Shown: positions 31,862 through 41,250 of the stretch, in pieces
How the letters are laid out: every line of letters starts with the position of its first letter
Numbering within the stretch: position 1 is the stretch's first letter
Assembly (NCBI GenBank): GCA_020061465.1
Contig: JAGUYG010000020.1
Coordinates: forward strand, 1-64,000
Direction of reading: 5' to 3'
DNA from: Ignavibacteriales bacterium
GTDB taxonomy: Bacteria > Bacteroidota > Ignavibacteria > Ignavibacteriales > Ignavibacteriaceae
DNA length: 64,000 nucleotides
Program-made: the position numbers and the translations under genes
Notes under the pieces: generated by a model
What the model was told of the DNA's origin: nothing
What the model saw: only the letters and a program-made list of their open reading frames with translations
Databases searched by the model: none

Positions 31862-31873
31862 TGTTGAAATTTT

Positions 31874-31905
31874 AGAGGCGGAAAATTATCTGCCTCTTAA
31901 TTAAC
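31874..31905 (+). terminator. Weak terminator after pruA
   Basis: AGAGGC (31874-31879) and GCCTCT (31892-31897) form a short stem, followed by TAATTAACC rather than a full T-run. A second, much better hairpin follows at 32058-32088. Confidence 0.5.
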
Positions 31906-31962
31906 CACTTCCAATCAACTAAAATGATGGATGTTTTATTTTTTTTTTGCTTCAATTCTCAG

Positions 31963-32049
31963 CCAATATTTTTATGATATATCTGTAGGTCAACTTGCCA
32001 GGTTGACCAATATTATTTCAGCAATTGCATTTTCCTTGATAACAAAATT
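31963..32049 (-). pseudogene. Ghost of a T9SS gene 3' end plus its downstream palindrome
   Basis: This stretch aligns for about 85 nt with 35900-35990, the 3' end of the T9SS gene 35955-37646 and what follows it. On the minus strand 32013-32042 reads LSRKMQLLK then stop, exactly the C-terminal tail of that protein. Three bases of 30 differ: two are synonymous and one changes TGA to TAA. The downstream palindrome GGTCAACTTGCCAGGTTGACC (31988-32008) is the same as at 35928-35948 with one change. No gene body precedes the tail; upstream in that reading lies the terminator and the lipoprotein gene. Confidence 0.85.
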
Positions 32050-32057
32050 ACTAAATT

Positions 32058-32088
32058 AAAACCGCAGTATTACTGCGGTTTTTTTTAA
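32058..32088 (+). terminator. Strong hairpin with T-run directly before the lipoprotein gene
   Basis: AAACCGCAGTA/TACTGCGGTTT closes around almost no loop (32058-32080), followed by an 8-T run on the plus strand; the minus strand also has a short T-run, so it may work both ways. It ends 21 nt before the ATG of the gene at 32110, leaving room only for the AGGAG Shine-Dalgarno. It may terminate transcripts of pruA or of the ghost end, or act as an attenuator for the genes at 32110-35237. Confidence 0.75.
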
Positions 32089-32109
32089 CCAGGTAGGAGA
32101 CTTCCATTT

Positions 32110-33783
32110 ATGTCGAAATCAGTAACGAATTATTTGAGGTTGCATCTTCTTCTTTCAGTTTTGTGGATACACGGCTGTATTGATATACCCGATGAGGTCA
32201 TTTTGCCACGCTGGGATGTGGAGTTAAACATTCCAATAACAGAAAGATCATATTTCCTGTCTGAGATTCTCGATTCTGCCAGAAATCCGAACATTGATAT
32301 TTTCTCGCAAGTCGGTGTTGCCGACAGTTTATATATGCTTGTTTCAAGCGATATATCCGGTTCTGCTGCCATACAGGATACAATTAAAATACCTGTTCAA
32401 CAAATACCTACCGATTTTGACTTATCAGGTACAGTAACACCCGGTACCCCGATACGCAGAGGATTGGTTTATAACCCCGATCCCGAATTTCATCTGCTAA
32501 AAGCAGAGTTCAAATCCGGAACAATTAATCTTAAATTAAATAATGAATCGTCAGTTCCGGTAAAGTACACATTTGTTCTACCCGGTTTTATAAACCGTAT
32601 TACAAATGCCGTTTTGGAATTAAATGGAACACTAAACCCTAACTCATCCTTTGAAGAGAAGATAAATCTTGCTTTGTACCGTTATGAAGAGAGACCGGTA
32701 CTTGGATTTAATCAGCTTAATCATCCCTATGCTTCACAGGCATCCCCGGGTTTCTTCTTTGTCGGTATTGCAGAAGTCACAGAATCCGGTTTAATCAACT
32801 TTGGTTTTACTTCTGAAATTACTTCTGATGAAATTATCGTAAGTAGAATGGAAGGAAGATTGAAAAGAACGGAGCTTGCACGTCAAATCTTTACTTTTGA
32901 TAACACTTTCGGTCAGGATGTTGGTGATTTTGGCTCAAAAATAAAATTCCAGGAAATAGATTTAAATTTTGCATCAATCACAACTGGTGATTTTGAAGGA
33001 TTAAAGATTATTATTGACTCTTTAATGGTTACCGGTTATGATATACTTCCAAACGGAAACCGCGCAAACACTATACCGCTTTTATTTGATGGGAATCCTT
33101 ATTTAGTGAGAGAAATGGTCGCCGGTGTGCCCATTTCTTTAGTATTTAACGAAACAAATACAAACCTGACAGATTTTTTAACAAGCTTTCCGGATGAAAT
33201 AGAAGTAAGCACTAAATTTGTTATTGATAACGTATCTGCAACTTCAACCGGTGTTGTTTCAAGTGAAGATTCAATACATTATACTATAGATATCCGGGCA
33301 CCGTTAAAAGTTTCACTTAGTGACGCAGGTTATGCAGACACAGTAAAAATTGAAGGTTTGAGTGAAGAAAACCGGAAGGACATTGTAAATGGTAATTCTG
33401 CAAATCTGACTCTTGAACTTGAGAACATGATTCCACTTGGTGTTCTTGCCAAAGTTACCATGCTCGACAAAAATTATGATCCTCTGTTTATTCTGAAGAG
33501 CAGTGATAACAATGTTGTTGGTGATATAATACAGATTGGATCGGCAGCTATAAATAACGAAGGTATACCGATAACACCCGCAACACAAACCACCACCCTT
33601 CTAATGGATAAAGATGACTTCAGAAAATTTGCAGAAACCGAGTATGTGCTTATTGATGTAGCAGTTCGTTCAACCGGTTCAACCGCTACTAATTTTGGTC
33701 CTTTTGTACGGGTTCGTGCAAAAGACTGGGTAAAATTCAAAATATACGGCGGTATTAATTATTACTTAGATTTAGATCGATAA
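32110..33783 (+). CDS. Lipoprotein of unknown function paired with a DUF5723 protein
   Basis: 557 residues. The lipobox LWIHGC gives a lipidated C23. The mature part is all-beta with repeated LEA/immunoglobulin-like strand patterns: VPVKYTFVLPGFIN and NNESSVPV near 150-170, ISLVFNETNTNLTDFL, KVSLSDAGYADT and VTMLDKNYD. No enzymatic motif is seen. The preceding ATG context is AGGAGACTTCC, a good RBS, but a strong terminator-like hairpin lies just upstream. The DUF5723 gene follows after 14 nt. Such lipoprotein/beta-barrel pairs suggest a surface complex; this is inference. Confidence 0.65.
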   Translation: MSKSVTNYLRLHLLLSVLWIHGCIDIPDEVILPRWDVELNIPITERSYFLSEILDSARNPNIDIFSQVGVADSLYMLVSSDISGSAAIQDTIKIPVQQIPTDFDLSGTVTPGTPIRRGLVYNPDPEFHLLKAEFKSGTINLKLNNESSVPVKYTFVLPGFINRITNAVLELNGTLNPNSSFEEKINLALYRYEERPVLGFNQLNHPYASQASPGFFFVGIAEVTESGLINFGFTSEITSDEIIVSRMEGRLKRTELARQIFTFDNTFGQDVGDFGSKIKFQEIDLNFASITTGDFEGLKIIIDSLMVTGYDILPNGNRANTIPLLFDGNPYLVREMVAGVPISLVFNETNTNLTDFLTSFPDEIEVSTKFVIDNVSATSTGVVSSEDSIHYTIDIRAPLKVSLSDAGYADTVKIEGLSEENRKDIVNGNSANLTLELENMIPLGVLAKVTMLDKNYDPLFILKSSDNNVVGDIIQIGSAAINNEGIPITPATQTTTLLMDKDDFRKFAETEYVLIDVAVRSTGSTATNFGPFVRVRAKDWVKFKIYGGINYYLDLDR

Positions 33784-33797
33784 AGAGGAGGAACACA

Positions 33798-35237
33798 ATG
33801 AAATATATTATCTTCTTTTTAATGATTTATTTAACGATTCCTTCTCTTTATGCACAGGGAGGAGGTTCAGTCGGTGCATCAGATGCCCGTTCAACTGCTA
33901 TGGGTAAAACTTACACAGTCACTTCTCGTGGTGTGTATGCTATCGGCAAAAACCCTGCTAATTTAATGCTTAGTAAAGATGGAACTGTACAGTTTGCTAC
34001 ACTACTTCCTATTCCGAACATTAATTTAAGGTCAGGTACTGATTTTATCACTATCAATGATTTCAACTATTTCTTTGGAGGCGTTGAAGAAAACGGCGTT
34101 AAAAAAGGAAGATACTTCGATGATGATGATAAAGAGAGGTTGAATAATATCTTTGAAGGGGGCGGTTTCTTTGTTACCGATGCAGAAGCAATTCTGCTCA
34201 GTGCAACCTATAAAAACAGTGATGATATAGGTGCTTTCGGGTTCAGCATAAGCGACAGATTTGCTTTTAAATTCAACATACCTGAACAGTTGATCAATCT
34301 TGGACTTGAAGGTAACCCAGTCGGTTCAATTTATAATTTTGACGATGCAGATATTAAAGGTTGGTGGCTTAGAGATTATTCGCTAACCTATGCCAGAAGT
34401 TTGAATGAAATAAAACCGGATAACTTCAAAAATCTTTTTGCAGGGATTTCCTTTAAACTGGTACATGGGTTTGCTTACATTGGAACTGAATATGTTAATT
34501 CAAAACTTGAAACCGGGCAGGGGAATGTTCTTTCTGCAACAGGTAATGTTCTTGCTTATTCCGCATTCTCCGAAGCATTTGCAATCAAGTATGGATTTGA
34601 TTCTACCGGTAATGATAAAGAGAGTAGCATTGGTCCATTTCCCACACCTGCAGGAAAGGGATTCGGTATAGATTTGGGTTTTGCCGCAGTTCTTGATGAT
34701 GCTTTTTCATTCGGGCTTGCTATAACAGATATTGGTAGTATTAGCTGGACCGAAAATGCTGCAAAATTTTCTTCTAATAACGCAGTAGTTTTAACTGATA
34801 TTACAAATGCAGAACAGCGGGATTCACTCGTTAATAGTATTACAGGTGATGGGGAATATATTAATAACTTTTCTTCTCCTCTTTCTACCGCACTAAGATT
34901 AGGTGTTGCTTTTCAGCTTGATAAATCCAATATGGTTAGTGATTTTTTAGGTTCACTACTTATTACTTTAGATTACAACCAGGGATTCAATAACCAGCCG
35001 AGAAACAGTACCGTTCCAAGAGTGTCGTTAGGTTTTGAATGGAAACCGGTTAACTGGTCAGCTATCCGTACAGGGTTTTCTTTCGGCGGGAAAGATGCTT
35101 TTGGCTGGGCATTCGGATTAGGTTTTGATGTAGGTGTTTTAGAAATGAATTTTGCAACTTCAGATTTACAATATCTCCTTTCTCTTAACAGTGCCAAGCG
35201 GGTTGCAGTCTCTTTCGGATCACGCTGGATTTTTTAA
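33798..35237 (+). CDS. DUF5723-family outer-membrane beta-barrel protein
   Basis: 479 residues with a signal peptide (1-20). The N-terminal mature stretch SDARSTAMGKTYTVTSRG followed by IGKNPANLM is the PorV/FadL-like entrance motif (small residues, then NPA). The rest is a beta barrel of alternating aromatic and Gly strands, with a barrel-closing C-terminus ending in F (RVAVSFGSRWIF). GAFGFSISDRFAFKF and the SWTE-type strand are typical of DUF5723. Function is unknown. GAGGAGG precedes the start, the best RBS of this region. It is co-transcribed with the lipoprotein upstream. The stop is only about 90 bp before a decayed gene end of the neighbouring cassette. Confidence 0.75.
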   Translation: MKYIIFFLMIYLTIPSLYAQGGGSVGASDARSTAMGKTYTVTSRGVYAIGKNPANLMLSKDGTVQFATLLPIPNINLRSGTDFITINDFNYFFGGVEENGVKKGRYFDDDDKERLNNIFEGGGFFVTDAEAILLSATYKNSDDIGAFGFSISDRFAFKFNIPEQLINLGLEGNPVGSIYNFDDADIKGWWLRDYSLTYARSLNEIKPDNFKNLFAGISFKLVHGFAYIGTEYVNSKLETGQGNVLSATGNVLAYSAFSEAFAIKYGFDSTGNDKESSIGPFPTPAGKGFGIDLGFAAVLDDAFSFGLAITDIGSISWTENAAKFSSNNAVVLTDITNAEQRDSLVNSITGDGEYINNFSSPLSTALRLGVAFQLDKSNMVSDFLGSLLITLDYNQGFNNQPRNSTVPRVSLGFEWKPVNWSAIRTGFSFGGKDAFGWAFGLGFDVGVLEMNFATSDLQYLLSLNSAKRVAVSFGSRWIF

Positions 35238-35324
35238 TTAAGACTAGAAACGAAAGACCGGTTATGGGATGCCCACTTTGGTTTTGAAACGATCCCTTGG
35301 ATAAGCTTCTGTGGGTGAAAGAGT

Positions 35325-35537
35325 AATCGGCAATGTTTTTATACATTACCTTGCCGTTTGGATATTCAAGTTTTAATAAGTCTTTTTCAACTTCTGTTGC
35401 TTTTGGGAATCCATCCCTTTGGGAAATATCCCCACGATTTTTTAACTGCAGAAACTTTTCCTCTTTACCGCCACTAGCAGCTAACTGTCCAAAAGTAAAA
35501 CCACCGACAACAAACAATAAACCCAAAAAGCTTTCAT
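35325..35537 (-). pseudogene. Frameshifted N-terminal fragment of the T9SS gene at 37666-39474
   Basis: The minus strand encodes the first about 70 residues of that gene's product: ...TFGQLAASGGKEEKFLQLK, then LLKLEYPNGKVMYKNIADY, aligned with TYAQLAAGISKEEKLQQLK and LLKLEFPNGKVMHKNIADF. The start ATG at 35537 reads MKAF, then goes out of frame. A T-run one base too short (5 instead of 6) explains this, giving a frameshift inside the signal peptide. The gene stops after codon about 70, where homology ends near the stop of the DUF5723 gene. A longer frame (to 35604) uses an unrelated start and is not a real gene. Confidence 0.85.
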
Positions 35538-35710
35538 CACTTTTTTGCCTCTTTATTAAGTATAGGGAAAGAAATCTACAAAATGTTGTATAACTCATAT
35601 TCAATATTTATTAAGCAAAGTAAATCTGGTTGAGAAGAACGACTCCCCGTAGTTTTTTCTGGAAATGTAAGAATGTTTAGTGGATTGTATGTCCATCCTG
35701 TTTGCAACGC

Positions 35711-35801
35711 AAAATTCGAAAATATCATATCGGATAAAAGTGATAAGTAATTCTAATGGCAGCATAATCACCACCCCCGTAAGATGGGAAGGATAATTAC
35801 A
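35711..35801. repeat. 91-nt block, copy 1, nearly identical upstream of both cassettes
   Basis: Runs from AAAATTCGAAAATATCATAT to GGAAGGATAATTACA and matches 39646-39737 with only a few changes: a CCACCCCC versus TCCCCCCCCC run and one indel. The flanks on both sides of the two copies are visibly more diverged. It lies 174 nt upstream of the ghost start (35537), and the other copy lies 172 nt upstream of the intact gene (39474). This points to selection on the block (promoter/leader) or local gene conversion. The rest of 35802-35927 shows weaker homology to 39738-39850. Confidence 0.8.
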
Positions 35802-35927
35802 ACAACGCTTTGCAGAAGATTAAGAAATATATTCAGAATCTCATTCACTCTTATCCCCCGAATTACACACCCAATAAGCTAAAATATTTTAAGAAAATCA
35901 ACGAATATTTTTATACTATAATCTGTA

Positions 35928-35948
35928 GGTCAACTTGCCAAGTTGACC
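35928..35948. repeat. Perfect palindrome GGTCAACTTGCCAAGTTGACC
   Basis: Nine base pairs around a CC-centre; preceded by TGTA and followed by A. Copies lie at 31988-32008 and, with a different core (GGTCGAATCTCCGATTCGACC), at 49967-49987. It is located 7 nt after the stop of the T9SS gene (minus strand) but lacks a T-run, so it is a repeat element rather than an ordinary terminator. Confidence 0.7.
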
Positions 35949-35954
35949 AACCTC

Positions 35955-37646
35955 TCATTTCAGCAATTGCATCTTCCTCGATAAAACTTTCCCGTTCGCA
36001 TTTAAGGTGTAGATGTATGTCCCGCTTGGAATATCTTCGGCGTAGAATTCAACTTCATATTTTCCGGCAGGTTGGTAATCATTTATGAGTGCTGCAATTT
36101 CTCTTCCAAGTAAATCAAAAACTTTCAATGTTACCATTCCTTCCTCTTTAATTGAATATAAGATAACAGTAGACGGATTAAATGGATTTGGGTAATTTTC
36201 ATTTAATGCATATACAAAGTTGTTATCTTTTGCTTGATGTGAAGCTGAATTTTTCCATGTACTCTGCCCGCTTGTTGAAACATAATCTGAATAATCGGAT
36301 GCGTTATCTGATTTGTCGATTGCCTGAACCGAATATCTGGCTATAAGCTCTCCATCTCTTCGTCTTACAATATTTACATCAGTATAAGGACTGGTTGCCG
36401 GGTTGATGTAAGTGGGATTTCCCCAGCCGCCGCCAAAATTATATTCAATTTTAAGAATGAAGTGATCAATATCCGGTTCTCCGTTATTAGTCCATGATAA
36501 AACTGGATTTTGCCCCCATCCTCCGCTCATGGAAATCGTAGGGGCTAATGGGCTGGTATCGTACTGGCGGTATTTTAAGTAATTACCTGAATAAGGTTTC
36601 CATATAACAAATAAATCGTTTGCAACCGCTGATGCAGCTACGTTTGAATTAGAACTAGTGTATTCATCGAAATAATAAATATCGCTCCAACTACTTCCGT
36701 CAAAATAGCGATGCCTCACATCTCCACTGCCGTATAATATATGTAATTTTTCATCTGCTGTTTGTTCGGCACCAATAAAATTTACCGGATCGCTATAAGC
36801 ACTAATTGTAGAGTAATTTGACCATTCCGTGCCAGATAAATCCCTGGAACGTACCTTTAATTCAAAACTATATTGACCTAAGTCAACCCAAAAATCATAA
36901 TAAAAATCGTAAAGCTTGTTCGTTCTTACTTGCAATTTTTCTCTTGCAGAAGTTTCTGACTGCCCTGTGACAGTTTGAGGTGTTTGCCAGTTATCATAGT
37001 ATTTGTCTCTAACTTTGGCAGTCCCTTGATACTCTCCGGGAAATGTGCCGGTATTTGTATTGTAACTTACGTGAACCATGTTTTCCGAAACTGCTACTGA
37101 TGGAAAACCACCAACTTCATCTTGATATCCGGTAACATATTCAATGCCGCCCCATTGGTCGTTTGAAATTAAACGGTAATATGTTTCATAATCCGGGTAA
37201 TTATCCCGCATAGCGTAAACTACATGTAGACCATAAATATTATAAACTATATCAACTCCATTGCACGTGTTACTACCAATAGATTGGTTAACCGCGTTAC
37301 CCCAGGAGCTGCCTGCATCTGTCGATTTTTTGAATCGAAGATATTCACCAAGTTTATATACAAGATAAATCTTTTCATCATCGCCAGAGATATTTGGAAA
37401 CTCAGCACCACCGGATGATTCAATGGTTGCGCTTCGAACAAGTGAGCCTGATGAATTTAATAAATAATATTTAATTGAATTTGAGCCATTGGAGTTTTGA
37501 ACTACAATGTGATTTCCGTCTTTATTAGTGAATAAGTCAATCTTTTCTGCGTTTGGTTCGTAGATGGACGTAGTAACTATACTATTCCAGCCTTGAGAAA
37601 AGATGTATGTACTGATAACTAAAAAGAAAAATAGCATCTTTTTCAT
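35955..37646 (-). CDS. T9SS cargo with beta-propeller-like body and Fn3-like domain
   Basis: 563 residues from the ATG at 37646, which has GGAG 8 nt upstream and opens with a signal peptide (KKMLFFFLVISTYIFSQG). An in-frame upstream extension to 37769 overlaps the previous gene and lacks sense. Residues about 20-390 have repeated strands with G-x-x-H-V-V-Y/V-A patterns (NGVDIVYNIYGLHVVYAM and others), like a sialidase-type propeller. A Fn3-like stretch (about 400-470: SWTNNGEPDIDHFILKIEY) precedes the type A sorting domain: ALNENYPNPFNPSTVILYS through GKVLSRKMQLLK. Ligand or enzyme activity is unknown. It lies 19 nt after the gene at 37666-39474 and shares its promoter. Confidence 0.8.
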   Translation of the reverse strand: MKKMLFFFLVISTYIFSQGWNSIVTTSIYEPNAEKIDLFTNKDGNHIVVQNSNGSNSIKYYLLNSSGSLVRSATIESSGGAEFPNISGDDEKIYLVYKLGEYLRFKKSTDAGSSWGNAVNQSIGSNTCNGVDIVYNIYGLHVVYAMRDNYPDYETYYRLISNDQWGGIEYVTGYQDEVGGFPSVAVSENMVHVSYNTNTGTFPGEYQGTAKVRDKYYDNWQTPQTVTGQSETSAREKLQVRTNKLYDFYYDFWVDLGQYSFELKVRSRDLSGTEWSNYSTISAYSDPVNFIGAEQTADEKLHILYGSGDVRHRYFDGSSWSDIYYFDEYTSSNSNVAASAVANDLFVIWKPYSGNYLKYRQYDTSPLAPTISMSGGWGQNPVLSWTNNGEPDIDHFILKIEYNFGGGWGNPTYINPATSPYTDVNIVRRRDGELIARYSVQAIDKSDNASDYSDYVSTSGQSTWKNSASHQAKDNNFVYALNENYPNPFNPSTVILYSIKEEGMVTLKVFDLLGREIAALINDYQPAGKYEVEFYAEDIPSGTYIYTLNANGKVLSRKMQLLK

Positions 37647-37665
37647 TTTAAAATCTCCAATATTT

Positions 37666-39474
37666 TTATTTAAGTAATAATACTTTTTTAGTTTTACTGT
37701 AAGATTCAGTTTTACTATGTGCTGATAATCTAATAAAATATATTCCTGAAGGTAGTGATCTACCTTCATGGTCTATTGCTTCCCAGCTATATGTATAGTT
37801 GCCGGGAGGAAAATCTTTTTCTACCAATGCTGATATTTCTTTCCCTATAACATTATATACTTTTAATGAAACCATTGCATGAGCGGTTATATCGAATTTG
37901 ATATTTGCCTTAGAATTAAAAGGATTGGGAAAAATAGGGTATAATTTATAACTAGTCGGTCCATCTTTTTCTTCAACAATTATTTCTGCTGGGAAATTTG
38001 GTTTATAAATTTGCGAAAATAATTTCAATCCAACATTTTTCTTTATGTCATCTAAGGTAATAATTACTTCTTCGATACCATTACCTGTTAAATCGTACAT
38101 CACTGCGCCGTAAAAAACACTATTTCTACCGTCTAATGCTAAGTCATTCTTTTTTAAATAAAACAGTTCAAATGACTGTCTGTTAGTTTCTCCATTGAAT
38201 TTTAATATTAACACAGTCTGCTCAATACAAATCATCATCTCTTCTATACCGTCATTGTCCACATCAACGGCTTGATAGTTTTGAGCGAAAAATGAGAATA
38301 CTCCGACAAGATCAATTCTTCCTACTATATGGTAACTATCGTCTCCGTCAGCTTCAAATATTGTTATTCTTGTCATAGGTCCTATATCAGGGTAAAACGC
38401 ATCGCCGCCTACCCAAATTTCTTTCTTGCCGTTACCGTCAATATCATTAGTTTGGGCGAGCTGATATGCATTGTAAGTTTCAACTCTTCCCACCCAGGTT
38501 GGAGAGTATGAATTGTCTCCTTTATTCTCGACACATGATACATAACCTTTAGTGCTTCCGGAAAAAAATTCTGTTCTGCCGTCCTGATCGAAATCGTCTA
38601 TAGCAAAACCGGCAAATTCCCGATTAATTGAAATGTTGTCGTAGAAGTATACTGAATCAAAATTCTGAATTGAAGGATTATATTCAAAGATGAACATACC
38701 TATACCCAATATATGGAAAGCCTGATCTGTAAATTCATCGCCATCCCAATCACCGAATTTATTATCGTTTTGTTGAGTAGTATAGGGAGTGAATGGATAA
38801 TAGAAAATAAACGATAATTCCTTGGCTAAGCTATCAATTGAAGATTTCCTATAAAATAAATAACTATTTCCCGGATATAGTGAGTCTTCAAATCTTCTAA
38901 GGTGAAGTTCAGACATTCCGTCTTTATCAATATCATAAATTGATTTAGCAATACTTGTATTGGAATAACTATAAACTGAATCAAATCCTCCATAATTATT
39001 CAATTCATAGACTACTATATCGGAATAATCGGTGTTATATCCCTTCTTCCTTCCATAAAGCTCGGGCAGCTTATTATTATTAACATCGCTAACTAATACA
39101 AATGAATTTGGTCCACTGCCCACCGGCACTTCTTTCCAAAGGCTGTATTTGTCGTAGTATAGTGTTGTATCAATATTCCTTAGATCTATTTCAGTGATGG
39201 TATAATTAGGGGAGTAGGTGGTTGGATGTGGGTAGTAGGTGGTAGGTTGTTGGTCGAAGTCGGCAATGTTTTTATGCATTACTTTACCGTTTGGAAATTC
39301 AAGTTTTAACAAGTCTTTTTCAATTTCAGTCGCCCTAATATAATCCCGGGTTTTTAATTGCTGCAGCTTTTCTTCTTTACTGATGCCTGCAGCTAACTGT
39401 GCATAAGTAAAACCGGAAATAACAAATCCAAAGAATCCTATTGAAAACAAACAGAAAACAAAAAATGATTTCAT
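37666..39474 (-). CDS. T9SS cargo with FG-GAP/VCBS calcium-loop repeats
   Basis: 602 residues. After a signal peptide (1-25), the body carries at least six acidic calcium-loop motifs of the D-x-D/N-x-D/N-G type: DVNNNKLPE, DIDKDGMSE, DWDGDEFTD, DFDQDGRTE, DIDGNGKKE and DVDNDGIEE. This is the FG-GAP/VCBS propeller arrangement. A low-complexity PTTYYPHPTTYSPNY (residues about 76-92) separates the signal region from it and is absent from the ghost copy at 35325. The C-terminal sorting domain starts at PIFPNPFNSKANIKF and ends KTKKVLLLK. It is the first gene of a two-gene operon. Function is unknown beyond surface localisation. Confidence 0.8.
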   Translation of the reverse strand: MKSFFVFCLFSIGFFGFVISGFTYAQLAAGISKEEKLQQLKTRDYIRATEIEKDLLKLEFPNGKVMHKNIADFDQQPTTYYPHPTTYSPNYTITEIDLRNIDTTLYYDKYSLWKEVPVGSGPNSFVLVSDVNNNKLPELYGRKKGYNTDYSDIVVYELNNYGGFDSVYSYSNTSIAKSIYDIDKDGMSELHLRRFEDSLYPGNSYLFYRKSSIDSLAKELSFIFYYPFTPYTTQQNDNKFGDWDGDEFTDQAFHILGIGMFIFEYNPSIQNFDSVYFYDNISINREFAGFAIDDFDQDGRTEFFSGSTKGYVSCVENKGDNSYSPTWVGRVETYNAYQLAQTNDIDGNGKKEIWVGGDAFYPDIGPMTRITIFEADGDDSYHIVGRIDLVGVFSFFAQNYQAVDVDNDGIEEMMICIEQTVLILKFNGETNRQSFELFYLKKNDLALDGRNSVFYGAVMYDLTGNGIEEVIITLDDIKKNVGLKLFSQIYKPNFPAEIIVEEKDGPTSYKLYPIFPNPFNSKANIKFDITAHAMVSLKVYNVIGKEISALVEKDFPPGNYTYSWEAIDHEGRSLPSGIYFIRLSAHSKTESYSKTKKVLLLK

Positions 39475-39645
39475 CTCTTTTATACCTTCCTAATAAGTAT
39501 AGGGAAAGAAATTAACACTTTTAGATATTATTGACGAATGTTTTCTTAATCTAAGTAAAACCGGTTGGGAAGAATGAGTCTCTGTAGTTTTTTCTGAAAG
39601 TTGATGAATGTTTAATGAGCGGTATGCCCACTCCGTGCGCAAGAC

Positions 39646-39737
39646 AAAATTCGAAAATATCATATCGGATAAAAGTGATAAGTAATTCTAATGGCAGCAT
39701 AATCATCCCCCCCCCGTAAGATGGGAAGGATAATTAC
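39646..39737. repeat. 91-nt block, copy 2
   Basis: Same sequence as 35711-35801 (see there), here 172 nt before the start of the intact T9SS operon. The wider homology runs from about 39255 (coding) to about 39840. It is a candidate promoter or leader for the operon; the sequence shows no recognised riboswitch. From 39841 to 40035 nothing recognisable is seen except an AT-rich leader of sucC. Confidence 0.75.
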
Positions 39738-40035
39738 ACTGGCATTACAGAGAAGAGTACAATTTATTTTAAGAATCTTCCTCAAATTAAACCCCCGGAT
39801 TCTGAGTGCAATTAGCAGAAATATTTATTAAAAATCAATCTATTTATTCAGTCGTTGTGCTTTGCTGAGGAAATAGAAGGAACAGCGTGAATATCATTTG
39901 ACTGACGAAGTTATTTACACTACGTCCTGACATATTTACTCATCCGAATGAAGTTTTCATCCAAACCAAATTCTTAATAAATTTGACCTCGAAATAATTA
40001 AATCAAATAATAAAAAGTTTATTAAAAAGGTTAAA

Positions 40036-41250
40036 ATGAAAATTCATGAATATCAGGCTAAAGAGCTCCTAAAAAAATTCGGAGCGGCAATTCAAGACGG
40101 AATTGCTATCAAAGATATCAGCCAGTTTGATTCAGCTATTGCAGAACTTCAAAGCAGAGGAATAAATCAATTTGTAATAAAATCTCAAATACATGCAGGC
40201 GGAAGAGGCAAAGGAAAAATTTATAATCCCAACAGCCGCCAAGAATTAATTTTAGAGGGCGGAGTAAAATTTGTCACTTCAGTTGAAAAGGCAAAAGAAT
40301 ATGCAGTCAAAATGCTTGGTAATCTGCTCGTCACTCATCAAACCGGTCCGGAAGGAAAAATTGTAAAAACGGTTTTTGTTACCGAAGGATTAGATTATAA
40401 GAAAGAGCTTTATCTCGGAATTCTGTTAGACAGAAATGTATCTCAAAATGTAATAATGGCTTCCACCGAAGGCGGCGTTGAAATTGAAAAAGTAGCAGCC
40501 GAAACTCCGGAAAAAATTATTAAAGAATGGATTGATTCAGCAGTCGGTTTGCAAAACTATCAAGCAAGAAAATTAGCATTCGGATTAGGACTTTCAGGCT
40601 CCGCATTCAAAAATTTTATAGTATTCATTCAAAAATTGTATAAAACTTACGAAGATACAGATGCATCATTGTTAGAAATAAATCCTTTGGTAATTACTAA
40701 TGACGACCGCATCGTTGCCCTCGATGCTAAAATGAATTTTGACGATAACGCTTTATTCCGTCACCCCGATATAGCAGCATTTAGAGATTTAGATGAAGAA
40801 GATCCCCTGGAAGTTGAAGCATCAAAATATAATTTAAATTATATCAAACTCGATGGGAATGTGGGCTGCATGGTTAACGGTGCCGGACTTGCAATGGCAA
40901 CTATGGACATAATAAAATTAGCAGGCGGCGAACCGGCAAACTTTCTTGATGTAGGCGGCGGCGCTAATAAAGAAACTGTTGCAAACGGATTCAAAATAAT
41001 CTTAGGAGATCCCAACGTAAAGGCTATTTTGATAAATATTTTCGGTGGAATTGTGCGATGCGATCGCGTAGCACAGGGAGTAATTGATGCCGCAAATGAA
41101 ATGCACGTCAACGTTCCCATAGTAATTCGTTTGGAAGGAACCAATGCAAAAGAAGCTGCAAAGCTGCTTAATAACTCGGGATTAAATTTTGAAGTTGCTT
41201 CTGATTTTAAAGAAGCCGCAGAAAAAGTAACATCGGTGTTGAGGAATTAG
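40036..41250 (+). CDS. sucC: Succinyl-CoA synthetase beta subunit (ADP-forming)
   Basis: 404 residues. ATP-grasp domain: MKIHEYQAKELLKKFGA at the start, then KSQIHAGGRGKGK, ASTEGGVEIE and SLLEINPL. The C-terminal CoA-ligase domain has LDVGGGANKETV and INIFGGIVRCDRVA. It forms succinyl-CoA or GTP/ATP with a SucD subunit in the citric acid cycle. SucD normally follows directly, but none is adjacent; it must be elsewhere. AAAGG precedes the ATG. A long gap with repeats follows. Confidence 0.92.
   Translation: MKIHEYQAKELLKKFGAAIQDGIAIKDISQFDSAIAELQSRGINQFVIKSQIHAGGRGKGKIYNPNSRQELILEGGVKFVTSVEKAKEYAVKMLGNLLVTHQTGPEGKIVKTVFVTEGLDYKKELYLGILLDRNVSQNVIMASTEGGVEIEKVAAETPEKIIKEWIDSAVGLQNYQARKLAFGLGLSGSAFKNFIVFIQKLYKTYEDTDASLLEINPLVITNDDRIVALDAKMNFDDNALFRHPDIAAFRDLDEEDPLEVEASKYNLNYIKLDGNVGCMVNGAGLAMATMDIIKLAGGEPANFLDVGGGANKETVANGFKIILGDPNVKAILINIFGGIVRCDRVAQGVIDAANEMHVNVPIVIRLEGTNAKEAAKLLNNSGLNFEVASDFKEAAEKVTSVLRN

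Follow-up and report, generated by a model that had tools for sequence, protein, structure and literature searches.

In the window, i.e. the whole stretch of 64,000 nucleotides analysed here, a two-gene T9SS-cargo operon, A-B, appears to have been inserted between pruA and sucC and duplicated in tandem, with the core of one of the two copies being replaced by a lipoprotein-DUF5723 gene pair from a bacterium of another family (probability about 0.72). The copy that would have lost its core is termed the ghost unit below, with the gene remnants A′ and B′, and the features concerned are the following:

31862-40035, no strand: inserted block between pruA and sucC, which are adjacent in relatives
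31959-32042, minus strand: left ghost end, comprising the last 9 codons of B′ and the downstream palindrome
31985-32008, no strand: dispersed palindrome GTAGGTCAACTTGCCAGGTTGACC, with about 13 genomic sites
32058-32086, plus strand: intrinsic-terminator-like hairpin AAAACCGCAGTATTACTGCGGTTTTTTTT before the lipoprotein gene
32110-33783, plus strand: lipoprotein gene (ORF) of the putatively foreign pair, f2/f3 clade
33798-35237, plus strand: DUF5723 gene (PF18990)
35238-35324, no strand: junction from the DUF5723 stop to the ghost A′ stub, without useful match in the sequences compared
35325-35537, minus strand: ghost A′, first ~70 codons, frameshifted
35538-35901, minus strand: ghost upstream block of A′, 74% identical over 368 nt to 39475-39838
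35925-35948, no strand: palindrome downstream of intact B
35955-37646, minus strand: intact B gene, encoding a T9SS type A sorting domain
37666-39474, minus strand: intact A gene, FG-GAP-like with T9SS sorting domain
39475-39838, minus strand: intact upstream block of A, containing at 39555 the conserved element GTAAAACCGGTTGGGAAGAAT

The block from 31862 to 40035 is an insertion, since pruA and sucC adjoin each other in related genomes, with a gap of about 80 to 1000 bp (G001, G019, G026, G011, G029, G014, G004, G047 and G048), and the gene order acs, pruA, sucC, tpr, aroE is found in G019, G026, G011, G029, G014 and G004. In the relatives first examined, A-B is sited away from pruA and sucC. 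In G001, the following gap, sucC-tpr, contains a tandem of two A-B-like operons, and another such operon lies beyond acs; the neighbourhood has therefore hosted such operons repeatedly. An arrangement in which the pair always stands next to pruA without the ghost ends was not encountered, as the pair was found beside pruA in none of 20 relatives inspected with wide flanks. The sucC gene itself (40036-41250) and its homologues in the order fall into two identity groups, 80-84% and about 70%, which do not run along family lines, so that sucC was rejected as a phylogenetic control and lptG was chosen for this purpose.

Within the insertion, two units, each some 3.94 kb long, directly abut head to tail (31959-35898 and 35898-39838), as had been proposed in the initial annotation. 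The second unit is the intact operon A-B, of which the genome has one intact copy, and the first consists of A-B ends only, around the lipoprotein-DUF5723 pair, both genes of which are intact and lie, as originally described, on the opposite (plus) strand. By a search of the whole 4.2-Mb genome, the left end (31959-32042) was found to match 35898-35984 with 86% identity (E = 1e-20) over 84 bp, 24 bp of which are the dispersed palindrome; the reported recurrence of the 3′ tail of B (LSRKMQLLK-stop, here on the minus strand) and of its palindrome is thereby confirmed. The right end (35325-35901), located by the same search together with an alignment, matches 39258-39838 with 71% identity (E = 1e-83), which makes the recurrence of the start of A and its upstream block slightly longer than first claimed, and a genome-wide search yielded these two copies of the right end and no third. 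Order and orientation are identical at the left and right ends, almost all segments are spaced 3933-3942 bp apart, and the enclosed cores measure about 3.28 kb in the ghost unit and about 3.27 kb in the intact unit, so that their near-equal length holds as a measurement. With repeats at both ends and an intact copy beside a copy having an unrelated interior, the proposal that an operon was duplicated and one core exchanged with the ends kept is well supported.

With respect to the operon itself, B carries a T9SS type A sorting domain (TIGR04183, E = 3.5e-10) and A, according to Pfam, is FG-GAP-like (PF13517) with a T9SS type A sorting domain (PF18962); the two genes adjoin each other in many members of the order. 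The ghost stub of A′, frameshifted by a 25-nt deletion and insertions of 15 and 6 nt, is 67% identical at the amino acid level to residues 16-73 of A (E = 7.6e-18). Its differences from A at codon positions 1, 2 and 3 number 7, 7 and 14 of 53, respectively, and dating of the stub was dropped because this third-position excess is only mild. A short insert in the stub at 35398-35429 (GGGAATCCATCCCTTTGGGA) matches stretches of 25-29 bp in several other genomes and is perhaps a dispersed repeat.

The upstream blocks of the two units contain a perfectly identical tract of 61 bp (35710-35770 in the ghost), a run length reached in none of 20,000 simulations, and are 67% identical outside this tract. 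Around it, some 97 bp (35703-35801 versus 39637-39738) are far more alike than the remainder and harbour a hairpin that contains nine consecutive C residues in the intact unit (five in the ghost); this stretch might be either a conversion tract or a region under constraint. The conserved element GTAAAACCGGTTGGGAAGAAT at 39555-39577, which is found in several genera at a distance of about 100 bp upstream of the A gene, is degenerate in the ghost. A class-wide search with the upstream block in 390 other genomes gave chance-level matches only, a small protein gene was discarded as an explanation of the block on account of stops within the stretch tried, and the one sub-threshold match to Rfam (STnc40, E = 0.19, over the tail and the terminator) was taken as chance.

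The palindrome GTAGGTCAACTTGNCAAGTTGACC(TAC) gives 23 strand hits at about 13 sites of the genome, and its backwards control gives 0. Among the copies with flanks read, common flanking sequence is confined to those at 31985-32008 and 35925-35948. Several copies among loci L073-L095 adjoin the 3′ ends of T9SS genes, and similar matches exist in other genomes of the order. As to known classes of mobile elements, no transposase was detected among those ORFs of the block that have family hits, no integrase was found in the block by Pfam, and inverted repeats are weak only, apart from the two palindrome copies, which match each other.

The DUF5723 protein (PF18990, E = 8e-33) also has a sub-threshold match to the NCBIfam model PorV_fam of the PorV/PorQ family (E = 1e-12). 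For its structural model (pLDDT 85.5), the top Foldseek matches include TodX, FadL and the T9SS component PorV (6h3i_F, E = 2.5e-7) with modest TM-scores of 0.39-0.46, and the protein is accordingly listed here as a predicted outer-membrane barrel of the FadL/PorV type. The lipoprotein has no family hit; together with the barrel it may act at the outer membrane. In the literature searched, no mention of DUF5723 was found.

In most of the pair-holding relatives examined, the pair resides between DUF3467 and the convergent genes lptG-lptF, with TPR preceding DUF3467 and, often, an adenylate-cyclase-like gene and a T9SS gene, C, following it. In the genome of the window, this TPR-DUF3467-...-lptG-lptF site is intact on another contig, with DUF3467 located 80 bp from lptG and the pair absent. 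The site likewise lacks the pair in nine members of the family (G019, G004, G035, G011, G026, G029, G001, G013 and G018). The comparison set comprised one genome per species, the species other than the window's own all belonging to other genera, so that no intermediates were seen; the family of the window's genome, f1, appears to be Ignavibacteriaceae, and f2 Melioribacteraceae. In this set, the lipoprotein shares 39-41% identity with its counterparts in four genomes of f2/f3 and 24-29% with the full-length homologues from its own family; it is placed in the f2/f3 clade with a support of 100/100, and a grouping with f1 is rejected (AU test, p = 1.8e-5). The control gene lptG of the same genome groups with f1 (support 98, quick tree), so that the lipoprotein tree, out of the family, conflicts with the genome's own marker, which stays within it. 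For DUF5723, the best matches are from f3 (59% and 55% identity), the closest donor-like sequence being only 59% identical, and placement in f1 is not rejected by the AU test (p = 0.09); an early scan of the genomes' contigs with DUF5723 returned no close relative. With a G + C content of 0.37-0.38, the pair does not stand out as foreign in this genome.

A relocation of the pair within the genome, from the DUF3467-lptG site into the duplicated operon and without any horizontal transfer, would also leave the native site empty. However, this is unlikely, because the site is empty in the nine other family members, so that the loss of the pair looks older than the insertion, and because the lipoprotein falls outside the family's own copies. 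Instead, the empty native site, the out-of-family lipoprotein and the in-family lptG point to a gain of the pair from a bacterium of another family, which is the most likely origin as judged from sequence comparison; taken by gene, a horizontal origin of the new core is well supported for the lipoprotein, and the data for DUF5723 are consistent with it. The hairpin AAAACCGCAGTATTACTGCGGTTTTTTTT (folding z-score -6.0) resembles one between T9SS gene C and the lipoprotein gene in the f3 genomes G046 and G038, and the incoming segment would therefore have carried its own upstream terminator.

In two relatives with complete, single-contig genomes, G001 and G019, A-B-type operons have 5′ blocks with 87-95% and 3′ ends with 82-98% DNA identity. 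In G001, the units U1, U2, U4 and U5 have a 5′ block of about 256 bp in common (87-95%), and the last 271 bp are common to U2, U4 and U5 (88-92%), with 191 bp thereof shared between U1 and U2 (87%). For U2 and U5, identities of 95% in the 5′ block and 92% in the last 271 bp enclose A cores that are 30% identical; overall, the A cores of U2, U5 and the rest have 25-36% protein identity, and those of U1 and U4 have 67%. In G019, two units lying 38 kb apart have 5′ sides that agree over 495 bp (91%) and 3′ sides that agree over 314 bp (98%). One of them encloses a core of about 3.35 kb with A and B, the other a single-gene core of about 1.53 kb, and the two A cores belong to different lineages, each of which is also found in other genera. 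Strongly matching 5′ ends are confined to the respective genome, except that the 5′ end of G001 has a single match of 63 bp in G098. The 3′ ends, in which the sorting domain is encoded, are only 68-78% identical to their matches in other genomes. Among the nine multi-unit genomes compared, both ends are common to the units in two, sharing is mainly at the 3′ end in another two (83% and 75%), and an entire unit is duplicated in one (89%). Single genes in which an A-type core is fused to a sorting-domain end of the B type occur in both G001 (L259, 3267-5271) and G019 (L265, 6202-7778). Since the common 5′ blocks are largely or wholly non-coding, recombination at the ends fits better than selection, and A-B-type operons of related genomes most likely mix by recombination at their common ends, which in turn suggests that this operon family is probably prone to rearrangement.

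By extension, the ends in the window might themselves be exchange sites, at which cores would be swapped through homologous recombination in the 5′ block and in the sorting-domain end on the 3′ side, the pair being one such core. The units U2 and U5 of G001 and the two units of G019, with their closely similar ends and dissimilar interiors, speak for this possibility. It is nevertheless improbable for the window, as the duplicate ends there are only ~70-88% identical to each other, the pair is inverted relative to A-B and free of A-B sequence, and no other core was found between the window's ends, either in its own genome or in the 390 further genomes of the class that were searched. The suggestion that the ends act as boundaries of exchangeable cassettes is thus unsupported within the window's genome and gains indirect support only from G001 and G019, where near-identical ends surround different A-B-type cores. 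Nor does the near-equal length of the two cores indicate cassettes; given the unequal cores in G019, it is best read as chance. More generally, it is conceivable, if doubtful, that the T9SS-cargo A-B operons of the Ignavibacteriaceae constitute a core-exchange system whose ends can even capture unrelated foreign genes, as would have happened in the window; equally tentative is the detail that genome-specific 5′ blocks with a conserved GTAAAACCGGTTGG element and 3′ sorting-domain ends would be homogenised by recombination and the cores swapped. That the ghost ends are independent remnants of separate deletions and insertions, flanking the pair by chance, is highly improbable: one of them is short and contains a dispersed repeat, but order, orientation and spacing agree at both ends, and the E-values are those given above.

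In the preferred reading, replacement of one core in a tandem duplicate, the operon A-B would first have been inserted between pruA and sucC and then have given rise to two tandem units of 3.94 kb. Non-homologous recombination would then probably have put a segment from a member of another bacterial family in place of the interior of the first copy. This segment would have comprised the terminator, the lipoprotein gene and the DUF5723 barrel gene and been joined in the opposite orientation. As leftovers, a dead 5′ stub with its upstream region and a 9-codon 3′ tail with the palindrome would have remained. We infer this order of events, a single event and the mode of joining; non-homologous joining is the simpler assumption because of the orientation of the pair and its lack of A-B sequence.

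If so, a membrane-protein gene pair was lost from its usual site and regained elsewhere by overwriting a duplicate operon. The A-B operons may, moreover, represent a T9SS-cargo operon family of little-studied environmental bacteria in which the ends are alike inside a genome and the interiors differ, and true core exchange among them would offer a way to diversify the cell surface.

With integron gene cassettes (PMC1382264), the A-B operons share the presence of different genes between common end sequences; unlike in these cassettes, however, the block has no integrase gene, the ends are long and genome-specific, and the cores are operons. The mutual recombination of repeated surface-gene sequences is also a feature of adhesin-operon variation such as that of MgPa in Mycoplasma genitalium (PMC2169797); the parallel drawn here is limited to this recombination and does not include a silent library, an expression site or switching within a strain. 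In Porphyromonas gingivalis, domain rearrangement and allelic exchange have been described for T9SS-exported surface proteins, and gene conversion via homologous recombination has been invoked (PMC5266723). Similarly, T9SS C-terminal-domain surface proteins seem to be diversified by recombination here. However, in P. gingivalis domains and alleles vary between strains, whereas each of the genomes G001 and G019 contains entire operon cores that are dissimilar although their 5′ and 3′ ends are near-identical, and in the window unrelated genes of opposite orientation would have taken the place of a core.
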